DNA of 59,713 nucleotides, taken from contig CANHIY010000004.1 in assembly GCA_947461175.1 (NCBI GenBank), forward strand, positions 1 through 59,713. The letters are read 5' to 3'. A program made the position numbers and the translations under genes. Positions within the stretch are counted from its first letter, which is position 1; the number at the start of each line of letters is the position of its first letter. The notes under the pieces are model-generated. The model did not search any database, was not told where the DNA came from, and saw only the letters and a program-made list of their open reading frames with translations. The stretch comes from Bacteriovoracaceae bacterium. Lineage in GTDB: Bacteria; Bdellovibrionota; Bacteriovoracia; Bacteriovoracales; Bacteriovoracaceae. Below, one piece after another: positions 23,670 to 27,282 of the stretch.

Positions 23670-24929
23670 ATGTTTAAAAAGCTTAATCTTCAGGAAAAAA
23701 TATTTTTAATTTTCACCTTTGTTCTTGGTCTTTTCCTATCTATTGTTTACTTATCTAACCAAGTCATCGTCCAGGACAGTGTTCAGCTTTTGGAAAGGGG
23801 ATACCTTTTCTCTCAAGGCTATCTTTTCCCTTTTGGGCCACGCTCCACCAATACAAACTATGTTTACGGGCCTTTCATCTCAGTCTTTGTAGGACTTTTT
23901 CTTAAACTCTATCAGCATCCCCTTTCACCACTGATGGGTATTTTAGTCCTACATGTTGGAAGTTTTTTTCTTCTTCTAAGAACAACTTTTTTAACTAAAA
24001 ATCTTCAATCTTTTCTTGTCTTTATTTTTCTTTTCTGGGCAACTCCTTGGAGGGCGAGTGAGGTTTTTCTTTGGAATCCAGCCTTTCTTTTTCCGCTCTC
24101 GGCTCTATGGCTTTATGGTTTAGATTGTTGCCTCAGAAATAAATCATTTTTAGGTACTTTTTTAATGGTGATATCAATTGCCATAAATTTTCAAATTCAT
24201 AATTCATTTTTATTTCTGGCGGTCCTATCACTCATTCTAGTTTTCACAAAAACCATGAGGGTAAATTATCTTGCCGTTTTTCTGGGAGCTTTGGTTGGGA
24301 TTCTTCTCCTGCTACCAACAGTTTATGTTTTTCTAAAGCATCCTGAAATACTTCAGCAAAACCAGAAGAAAGCTCCACTTTTCCACAATCTCATCCAGGG
24401 AGGTGAGGCGCTGAAAGGTCTTCTTTACTGGTTCAGGTATCCCTCCCTCTATTTTGGTGCAACTACTTTTCAGTTGCCAAAACTCATTTGGAATATGGCA
24501 AATTTTCAACAAAAGGTCTGGTTCATTTTGAAGTGGTCCATGGCCCTCCTGAGCTTAGTGGTTGTGATAGTCGCTAACTTCAAATTTTTTCGCTCAATGA
24601 ATCCTTCTTTTTTAAAAAGGCTCACTTTATACGCCTTAGGCTCCTTACTTTTTGTTTCATGCCTATCACCGGTACCATTTAATTTTTGGCACCTTTACCT
24701 CATTTTTCCCTTTTCTCTAATTCCTTTGTCTGAATACTTATCCCATCGTAAAAAGTTTATTCCAATCCTCTTAGCCATTTCTTTTTATAATATTCTTTAC
24801 TCTGTCATCACTTCTAGCCGAAGTTATAAACATGATGCCACTAGCTCTCAAATGAACTCCTTCGATAAAATCAGGAACCACTATCCAGAGATTGAAAAAA
24901 AATACGTTAAATATTCCTTGAAACTATAG
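23670..24929 (+). CDS. Polytopic membrane protein, GT-C glycosyltransferase-like
   Basis: 419 residues with about ten to eleven membrane segments. The first periplasmic loop after helix 1 has an acidic residue in the position typical of GT-C enzymes (NQVIVQDSVQLLERGYLF), and the loop carries GPRSTNTNYVYGP. GT-C enzymes transfer sugars from lipid carriers on the outer face of the membrane. The assignment rests on topology and this loop, not on a firm family match. It starts 6 bases after rng stops. Confidence 0.6.
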   Translation: MFKKLNLQEKIFLIFTFVLGLFLSIVYLSNQVIVQDSVQLLERGYLFSQGYLFPFGPRSTNTNYVYGPFISVFVGLFLKLYQHPLSPLMGILVLHVGSFFLLLRTTFLTKNLQSFLVFIFLFWATPWRASEVFLWNPAFLFPLSALWLYGLDCCLRNKSFLGTFLMVISIAINFQIHNSFLFLAVLSLILVFTKTMRVNYLAVFLGALVGILLLLPTVYVFLKHPEILQQNQKKAPLFHNLIQGGEALKGLLYWFRYPSLYFGATTFQLPKLIWNMANFQQKVWFILKWSMALLSLVVVIVANFKFFRSMNPSFLKRLTLYALGSLLFVSCLSPVPFNFWHLYLIFPFSLIPLSEYLSHRKKFIPILLAISFYNILYSVITSSRSYKHDATSSQMNSFDKIRNHYPEIEKKYVKYSLKL

Positions 24930-25033
24930 AGATATCAATTGTTTGCGGTTCTTTTTGAGAGAAAAATAAAATTTTGGACGCTTTGTGGTAAGTGTGCTAG
25001 GTTTCAGTGGACATTTTTTATATATTTCATCTC

Positions 25034-25058
25034 GCTCATGGCAATGTTGTCCATGGGC
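25034..25058 (+). promoter_or_regulatory. Leader hairpin before the S6-S18 gene
   Basis: GCTCATGG (25034-25041) pairs with CCATGGGC (25051-25058), 8 pairs with one G-T, loop of 9, ending 23 bases before the start at 25082. In several bacteria the S6:S18 complex binds an rpsF leader hairpin to repress its operon; the known CCG-bulge motif is not evident here, so function is inferred from position only. Confidence 0.35.
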
Positions 25059-25081
25059 TTAATTATAATCCAGGAGGAAAT

Positions 25082-25693
25082 ATGATCTACGAAACGGCCT
25101 TTGTCGTTCGCCCTGATGCATCTGAAGAAGTTGTGTCATCCATCAAGAACTCCCTAACCGAAACTTTTAAAGAGTTTGGTGCTGAAGTTCTTGTTAATGA
25201 TTCATGGGGAGTAAAAACGTTTGCTCAGCCCACTGAATCTGGCCTAAAAAAAGGCGCTTATCATTATTTCATGTATAAAGGTGCAGGTAACCTGAATGCA
25301 GAAATTGAGCGTAAATTCCGCATTAACGAAAATCTTGTTCGTCATCTCATCATTAAGTTAGGTGAAGATAATAAACAAGCAGAAATCGTTAAAAACTACA
25401 AAAATCCTAACCACACTCAAGCGGCTCAGATTGACGATGAATTTGGTGGTGGAGAGGATAAAGACAAGAAGATGCACTCTAAAAGAAAGTCTTGTTGGTT
25501 TTCTGCGAAGAAAACATCTCCAGACTGGAAAGATCCAAAATCTTATTCTTGGCTTGTGAATGAATTTGGAAAAATTTCACCTTCTCGTATTACTGGTCTG
25601 ACACCGACTTTTCAGCGTCGTGCAAACGAAGCGATTAAGCGTGGTCGTAACATGCTTCTTATTAGCTACCAGTCTAACGAAACAGCTCGCTAA
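25082..25693 (+). CDS. rpsF-rpsR: Fused 30S ribosomal proteins bS6 and bS18
   Basis: 203 residues from the ATG at 25082, which has AGGAGG with ideal spacing; an upstream in-frame GTG (25007) adds 25 unrelated residues and is rejected. Residues 1-97 are bS6 (MIYETAFVVRPDASEE, KKGAYHYFMY, ERKFRINENLVRHLI). Residues 98-130 are an acidic and Gly-rich linker. Residues 132-200 are bS18 (KRKSCWFSAKK, GKISPSRITGL, FQRRANEAIKRGR). No stop codon separates them. S6 and S18 are direct neighbours on the 30S platform, so a tethered pair is sterically plausible. An internal ATG at 25472 could also start a separate S18, with only a distant ribosome binding site (GGAGAGG, 14 bases upstream). Confidence 0.93.
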   Translation: MIYETAFVVRPDASEEVVSSIKNSLTETFKEFGAEVLVNDSWGVKTFAQPTESGLKKGAYHYFMYKGAGNLNAEIERKFRINENLVRHLIIKLGEDNKQAEIVKNYKNPNHTQAAQIDDEFGGGEDKDKKMHSKRKSCWFSAKKTSPDWKDPKSYSWLVNEFGKISPSRITGLTPTFQRRANEAIKRGRNMLLISYQSNETAR

Positions 25694-25714
25694 TTTTTGG
25701 AGAAATTAAAAGGT

Positions 25715-26695
25715 ATGAATTCTGAAGTGATGCAAACTCCACAACTCTCCCTAGGTCGTTTGTTCCTTTTAGGAGCAAGTTCTTTGGTGTTGTGTATTAG
25801 TTTCATCATGTCAATCTTTGCCCCCTTTCCTCTGGCCTTAGCTGTGATTATGTACGGCCGAACCAAAGGTTATCTGATTGGTTTGTCAGGGCTCATTACG
25901 AGTTTTATTCTGGCCAATTTGATTTACGGGGACCTCACGTTGTTTGGATTTTATTTTTGTGTGTTGATTTTTGGGTTTGGAATAGCTGAAATAGTTATTC
26001 GTGGTTTTACTCCTGTTAAGGCGATGGTCGTTTTTGGGATATCCTTTATCCTCATTCTGTCTGGTTCATTAGCTGGAGTCCTTAAATCTTTAAATCTCTC
26101 GCCTAAGAATTTCATTCTTCAACAACTACAGTTAAGTGCGGATAAAATTGCTGAGCAAAAGAAAATTGTTGAAATGAGTGGAGATCAAAATTCCCTGGAA
26201 GTTCTTCAATTACTTGACCGGCCTGATTTACTGGCAGATCAATTATTGGAACTTTTCCCAAGTTACTTTTTTATGGGAGTTTTCATCATGCTTTGGTTTA
26301 ACATGTTTCTGGTATTAAAAAGCAGAAGGCTTTTGTTTTCCGGTCAGGATTATCCCTTTTCAGAGAAAGATCTTTTGAATTTCAAAGTGCCTTTTGGTTT
26401 TGTAGCCATCTTAGTCATCGGATTAGTGTTTGCAGTTTGGGGAGAGGAACTAGGGTCAGTGTTTTACGAGAAAATAGGATTTACACTCATCAGGTGCCTT
26501 GGACTTTTTTATTTTTTCCAGGGTTTTGGTGTCTTTAGTGACTTACTCAATTTCGTAGGCATTGCCGGTTTTTTTCGTTCTCTGATTGTTATGGTCACTA
26601 TCTTTATGGCGAGTTATCTGATTGCAGCTGCAGGGTTATTTGATAATTGGTTTGATTTTAGAAAGTATTTTGTAAAGCGTACAACGAAAGACTAA
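25715..26695 (+). CDS. DUF2232-type membrane protein
   Basis: 326 residues from ATG 25715 (GGAG 12 bases upstream; an in-frame TTG at 25697 has no binding site). About eight membrane segments with a cytoplasmic or periplasmic helical insert between helices 4 and 5. Position between rpsR and rplI, and topology, match the DUF2232/YybS family found in this operon in many bacteria. Function is unknown. Confidence 0.8.
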   Translation: MNSEVMQTPQLSLGRLFLLGASSLVLCISFIMSIFAPFPLALAVIMYGRTKGYLIGLSGLITSFILANLIYGDLTLFGFYFCVLIFGFGIAEIVIRGFTPVKAMVVFGISFILILSGSLAGVLKSLNLSPKNFILQQLQLSADKIAEQKKIVEMSGDQNSLEVLQLLDRPDLLADQLLELFPSYFFMGVFIMLWFNMFLVLKSRRLLFSGQDYPFSEKDLLNFKVPFGFVAILVIGLVFAVWGEELGSVFYEKIGFTLIRCLGLFYFFQGFGVFSDLLNFVGIAGFFRSLIVMVTIFMASYLIAAAGLFDNWFDFRKYFVKRTTKD

Positions 26696-26709: not shown

Positions 26710-27282
26710 ATGAAAGTCATCCTTACTGAAAAAGTTAAGGCATTAGGAACAATCGGAGAGATTGTTAATGTTACGGCCGGTTTCGCCCGGAACTTCCTAT
26801 TTCCGAAAAAACTTGCCATCCTAGCTGATGAAAAGAATTCAAATGTTTTAAAGGATAAGCAAAAAGCCTTAGCAAAGAAAATTGCTGTTGAGAAAAATGC
26901 AGCTGAGGCCCTTAAGAAAAAGCTTGATGGACTCACAGTAGAACTTATTAAAAAAGTTGGTGCAAACGGTCGACTTTTTGGTGCTGTTACCTCTCAGGAA
27001 ATTTCAAAAGAGCTAGAGAAGCAGGGAGTTCACATCGAAAGACGTCTTATCCAGGTTGATAGTTCAATCAAATCCTTAGGGACTTACGACGTTAAGGCTA
27101 AAATTTTTAATGACGTAATTGCTACTTTTAAGCTCAAAGTTGCTATTGACGCAGCTATGGCCGAGGAACTTAAAAAACAACAAGCCGAAGCTCAAAAGCG
27201 AAATGCTGAAAAGAAAGCTAAAGCTGAGGCTGCCAAGGCCCAGGCCGAAGCTGACGCTATGGCCACTCAAACAGAAGAGTAA
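26710..27282 (+). CDS. rplI: 50S ribosomal protein bL9 with long charged tail
   Basis: 190 residues. The N-terminal RNA-binding domain carries the L9 signature (GTIGEIVNVTAGFARNFLFPKK), joined by the long central helix to the C-terminal domain (about 75-148). The last 40 residues (KKQQAEAQKRNAEKKAKAEA and on) are an Ala/Lys/Glu-rich helix-like extension absent from the 149-residue E. coli protein. AGGAG precedes the ATG and an intrinsic terminator follows. Confidence 0.96.
   Translation: MKVILTEKVKALGTIGEIVNVTAGFARNFLFPKKLAILADEKNSNVLKDKQKALAKKIAVEKNAAEALKKKLDGLTVELIKKVGANGRLFGAVTSQEISKELEKQGVHIERRLIQVDSSIKSLGTYDVKAKIFNDVIATFKLKVAIDAAMAEELKKQQAEAQKRNAEKKAKAEAAKAQAEADAMATQTEE

Follow-up and report, generated by a model that had tools for sequence, protein, structure and literature searches.

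Ribosomal proteins bS6 and bS18 are encoded as one polypeptide across the family Bacteriovoracaceae

We found that ribosomal proteins bS6 and bS18 are encoded by one gene, as one polypeptide, and that this fusion is a trait of the whole family Bacteriovoracaceae. The window, by which we mean the entire stretch of 59,713 nucleotides that was analysed (contig CANHIY010000004.1 of a Bacteriovoracaceae bacterium), encodes it at positions 25082-25693 of the forward strand. The first-pass annotation had described the gene in the window; its conservation in the family and its coincidence with loss of the zinc ribbon were absent from that description. In 65 Bacteriovoracaceae genomes, spread over dozens of genera, we verified that a single frame contains the two domains. 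The fusion probably works as a single S6-S18 chain in the 30S subunit, either uncleaved or independently of cleavage, represses itself through its leader, and was formed in place. In this mechanism, bS6 and bS18 would be held in one polypeptide by a flexible acidic linker, and the 30S platform would receive S6 and S18 already paired within one molecule, cleavage being absent or unneeded.

The gene consists of a single stop-free frame of 203 codons, which translates into 203 amino acids. The bS6 part (25082-25369, forward strand, residues 1-96) was matched by PF01250 at residues 3-92 (E-value 3.2e-19). The match covered positions 2-90 of the 90 of the profile and scored 69.4 bits, for a curated cut-off of 27. 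The NCBIfam equivalog of S6, TIGR00166, was also passed (54.8 vs a cut-off of 42.9). The bS18 part (25475-25690, forward strand), which is of the zinc-free (C-) type, was matched by PF01084 at residues 144-194 (9e-14), over positions 2-52 of 52, with 51.8 bits for a curated cut-off of 21. It passed the S18 equivalog TIGR00165 as well (53.6 vs 38.75). Between the two lies the linker (25373-25471, forward strand, residues 98-130), which is followed by Met131 (25472-25474, forward strand). The two domains are complete, in a single frame and above the cut-offs, and the first-pass annotation was right to read them as one polypeptide; its coordinates, its linker of about 33 residues and its placement of Met131 at 25472 all match ours. 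It is reasonable to think, as it did, that a covalent pair fixes the stoichiometry of S6 and S18.

Structure prediction was consistent with these assignments for S6. The predicted model has the ferredoxin-like fold of S6, and its top matches in Foldseek were S6 chains (2j5a, 4.3e-09, TMt 0.79). Two AlphaFold runs were confident for S6 and weak for S18 (pLDDT about 30-69 at residues 111-203). Among the best 60 of 124 structure matches, no solved chain contained both domains. A strong Shine-Dalgarno sequence, CCAGGAGGAAAT, is found 5' of position 25082. We rejected a GTG at 25007 as the start of a longer frame, since the extra codons would merely run through the leader, and it is 25082 that has the strong Shine-Dalgarno.

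The genomic neighbourhood and the unfused relatives suggest how the linker originated. The order RNase E/G, S6, S18, DUF2232, L9, DnaB is common to the fused and unfused members of the family. In the window, the fusion is followed by a DUF2232 (YybS-like) membrane protein (25697-26695, forward strand; PF09991, 1.5e-21), a downstream neighbour kept across the family, and then by rplI, encoding bL9 (26710-27282, forward strand; PF03948/PF01281), which is also a conserved downstream neighbour. The interval between RNase E/G and S6-S18 contains a hydrophobic ORF of 419 amino acids (23670-24929, forward strand) with no Pfam match. In five unfused members S18 has its own Shine-Dalgarno and starts about 40-55 residues 5' of the core. 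This extension is acidic or charged and ends in DKDRRMFSRKKSCWF or a similar sequence. The fused linker ends in DKDKKMHSKRKSCWF, which is of the same type, and begins as a continuation of the S6 tail (KNYK.P); in the window, the tail KNYKNPNH is followed by an acidic/Gly stretch. The matching tail and end sequences indicate that the linker combines the tail of S6 with the N-terminal extension of S18, and that Met131 is an internal methionine of this extension, not an old start codon. The fusion would have arisen in place, when the stop between the adjacent rpsF and rpsR was lost, and the acidic N-terminal extension of the family's S18 would have become the linker.

The fusion might instead be a precursor, in which a protease cuts the linker to deliver ordinary separate S6 and S18 to the ribosome. 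The linker would be an easy protease target, as it is variable, acidic and predicted to be disordered (pLDDT about 30-45), and there are basic stretches (DKDKK, DRRRFSRRK) 5' of S18. Yet we saw no cleavage motif conserved among the linkers. Across the 65 fused genomes S6 residue 93 and the S18 Cys stay 38-54 residues apart in spite of high sequence change, as expected of a tether, and retention in the entire family would bring a precursor no obvious benefit beyond stoichiometry. We consider this explanation unlikely. Incorporation in the ribosome without cleavage and regulation by the fusion of its own synthesis are both inferred.

A less probable alternative is that free S18 is also produced, beside the fusion, by internal initiation at Met131, as the first-pass annotation had suggested. 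An ATG occupies this position in the window and in the genomes closest to it, and in the window it is preceded, at a distance of 14 nt, by GGAGAGG. But this spacing is too long, and the pairing with the 16S tail, which is about -10 kcal/mol at the real start, is weak 5' of Met131 in most relatives. The equivalent of Met131 is also internal in the unfused S18 (RMF/RMV), and it is missing from lineage A and from several fusions of lineage B, the two lineages of fused genomes. Furthermore, from S6 residue 93 up to the first S18 Cys, 26 of the 65 fused genomes contain no ATG, GTG or TTG. In these genomes S18 can therefore be made only via the fusion, barring an unusual codon or a start inside the core. 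Internal initiation at 25472 is disfavoured by these results, to the point that we regard it as very improbable, and the best reading of Met131 is that of a plain internal residue.

We scanned 84,980 species genomes with the fusion protein and detected 37 loci, whose titles were those of Bacteriovoracaceae or of broader groups. Complete fusions accounted for 35 of them (46-97% identity), and the other two were S6 starts truncated by the end of a contig. Within the family, S18 was matched in 118 of 129 genomes, with an open frame of about 200 residues or more in 110 of the 118. The eight shorter frames were either cut by a contig end (G110, with a fused-type linker in its remaining frame, and G120) or unfused (G020, G059, G060, G061, G065 and G072). 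In the sample of other families of the phylum, to which the absence of the fusion outside Bacteriovoracaceae applies, no frame exceeded 155 residues among the S18 matches listed, a length that leaves no room for both proteins. In the Bdellovibrio-type outgroup G133 (L191) S18 adjoins L28 and L24, not S6; it is devoid of zinc ligands, and its C-terminus (ISPVPFEI) differs.

Exactly one match to S6 and one to S18 were found in the genome of the window, both at 25082-25693. The separate genes elsewhere that the first-pass annotation had named as contrary evidence were looked for and are absent from this assembly, which is about 90% complete and split into 211 contigs. A single S6 was likewise found in all of 20 fused genomes, the window's included, and the other 19 are mostly 97-100% complete. 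An alignment of relatives had also been proposed as a check: none of the 65 fused genomes has a stop in the linker. Across the 35 independent contigs linker length differs by whole codons only, and the fusion is present on the near-closed chromosomes of G104 (one contig) and G043 (two contigs). The same frame in all these contigs and chromosomes excludes chance or base-calling error, and a missed stop or frameshift, which the fragmented assembly of the window's genome might suggest, is refuted by the identical frame in the 65 verified genomes, some of them near-closed.

The fused genes share a conserved leader. In the window, the trinucleotide CUC (25031-25033, forward strand), complementary to the GAG of the Shine-Dalgarno, makes the 5' strand of a stem, H1, and directly precedes a hairpin, H2 (25034-25058, forward strand; GCUCAUGG / CCAUGGGC, 8 pairs, 9-nt loop). 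A conserved CC followed by the AGGAGG Shine-Dalgarno lies at 25070-25077 (forward strand), and the GAG at 25074-25076 is the 3' strand of H1, which has about 3 pairs only. The motif CCAGGAGG, or a near variant, was found 5' of nearly every fused gene. The general layout is CUC, a hairpin opening with G-C/C-G, an unpaired A/U-rich stretch, and CC(A/G)GGAGG. CUC is present in nearly all fused leaders and only rarely gives way to CUU, CCU or CCC. Since MAFFT alignments of the leaders misplace the hairpin, we measured stems with a script that starts from the anchors. The mean stem of 58 fused leaders was 7.9 pairs, vs 4.0 in shuffles, taking the longest stem per leader and scoring the shuffled control likewise, with a chosen anchor. 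Stem positions 5-8 covary: a single position may show as many as six of the standard pair types among these leaders. Two or three leaders fit poorly (G058, G070, G030/G031). Among unfused members, a comparable hairpin and the CC are present in G065 and G072, and the CC motif is missing from the leaders of G020, G059, G060 and G061.

In Escherichia coli, S6:S18 represses its own translation through the rpsF leader (PMC4647458; PMC10931766), where a Shine-Dalgarno stem and a hairpin are accompanied by conserved cytosines bound by Lys60 and Arg63 of S18 (PMC4647458). The CC of the fused leaders corresponds to these cytosines. The corresponding residues of the fusion, K186 and R189, are the same in all 29 fusions that we aligned. 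Rfam gave no family for the leader: its RpsF_leader model RF02893 matched neither the window leader (E up to 10) nor those of 12 related loci (E up to 5); the E. coli leader, used as a control, scored 110 bits. Lacking such a match, the leader is proposed to work like an rpsF leader, not to be a member of that family, and its architecture makes it a candidate S6:S18-binding leader of the rpsF type. The unassembled fusion would bind the hairpin leader that immediately precedes its start codon. Its S18 part would touch the conserved CC and stabilise the CUC:GAG pairing, which masks the Shine-Dalgarno; an excess of protein would thereby stop translation. The first-pass idea of autoregulation appears strengthened by the conserved hairpin and the invariant Lys and Arg.

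To place the fusion in the history of the family, we used a tree of rpoB, rpoC, SecA, DnaB, L9 and DUF2232. The fused lineage A had a support of 100%, and the unfused G065 was sister to the fused lineage B with 99%; several deep nodes had 38-66%. Under a simple model, and with several long branches, topology tests rejected the monophyly of the fused genomes alone (AU test, p 9e-5, or 0.005 when G072 was added). The monophyly of fused genomes, G065 and G072 together was fully compatible with the data (p 0.5). A smaller matrix agreed, with fused-only monophyly at p 0.0025. Hence the fusion occurred at least twice, or once with one reversal. A single fusion followed by a split in G065 implies that zinc ligands were kept there and lost in both lineage A and lineage B. 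Earlier trees, of DnaB and L9 or of rpoB, RNase G, DUF2232, L9 and DnaB, left the deep branches unresolved. AlaRS was dropped as a marker because its profile scores split widely into two groups inside lineage A. In the family, the two distinct score classes of this alanyl-tRNA synthetase (E about 1e-150 in loci L284-L288 vs 1e-190 in L265-L283) suggest replacement or paralogy. Two SecA-like genes were found in each of G060 and G061 (L308, L311, L318), from an unfused lineage with large genomes.

The genome G072 deserves separate mention. On its contig C61 (L101, L124), S6 and S18 are in-frame and split by one TAA, after a fused-type leader. No ATG, GTG or TTG precedes the S18 core, and this S18 is zinc-free. 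The plainest reading is that the gene is fused and was misassembled; a recent split or readthrough are the alternatives.

The fused S18s have lost their zinc ribbon. In the window, the ligand positions are occupied by C, S, T and F instead of C, C, C and H, the first Cys alone being kept. None of the 65 fused S18s has the four ligands of C+ forms (CxxC...CxxH): at least ligands two and three are gone. Those of lineage A usually keep Cys1 and His4, with two ligands lost, and those of lineage B, which includes the window, have kept Cys1 only, with one exception, so that usually three ligands are lost. The complete CCCH set is found in five of the six unfused S18s of the family, the sixth being the zinc-free G072. 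We tentatively suggest that covalent S6-S18 could be a standing 30S component of nearly the whole family, that it could have arisen more than once, each time with loss of the S18 zinc ribbon, and that the tether may replace the zinc site. The coincidence of zinc loss and fusion, of which we found no description in the literature searched, involves few independent events and may be due to chance.

The fusion is a natural obligate S6:S18 heterodimer, and as such tests whether the dimer suffices for assembly of the 30S platform and for autoregulation. A family with fused and unfused, zinc and zinc-free forms is also a natural experiment on the loss of zinc sites in ribosomal proteins. Annotation and marker-gene work are affected, given that the S6 and S18 models match one gene in Bacteriovoracaceae. 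Covalent fusions of two ribosomal proteins from different genes are, to our knowledge, rare. We found no published S6-S18 fusion in the literature searched, which takes in few subscription journals, and such fused proteins may already be present in databases.

Assembly and autoregulation both involve S6 and S18 as a heterodimer (PMC4647458; PMC10931766). The locus resembles the E. coli operon rpsF-priB-rpsR-rplI, with the same two protein families in the same order and L9 downstream. However, the E. coli operon encodes two chains with priB between them, whereas the family has one chain, with DUF2232 between S18 and L9. The leader has the architecture of RpsF_leader RF02893, i.e., a Shine-Dalgarno in a stem, a hairpin, and unpaired cytosines conserved ahead of rpsF, but its H1 is short, the third base of CCG is usually A, and the model gives it no score. 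Zinc-free (C-) variants of zinc-ribbon ribosomal proteins, S18 included, are well known, as stated where PMC3087516 cites Makarova et al. The fused S18s are similar to these variants in having lost at least two of the four ligands, in a family that also has C+ forms. They differ in that there is no pair of C+ and C- paralogues, and in that loss and fusion to S6 go together at a single locus. The separate parts of this system were thus already known; what is new, as far as we found, is the covalent, family-wide union of S6 and S18.
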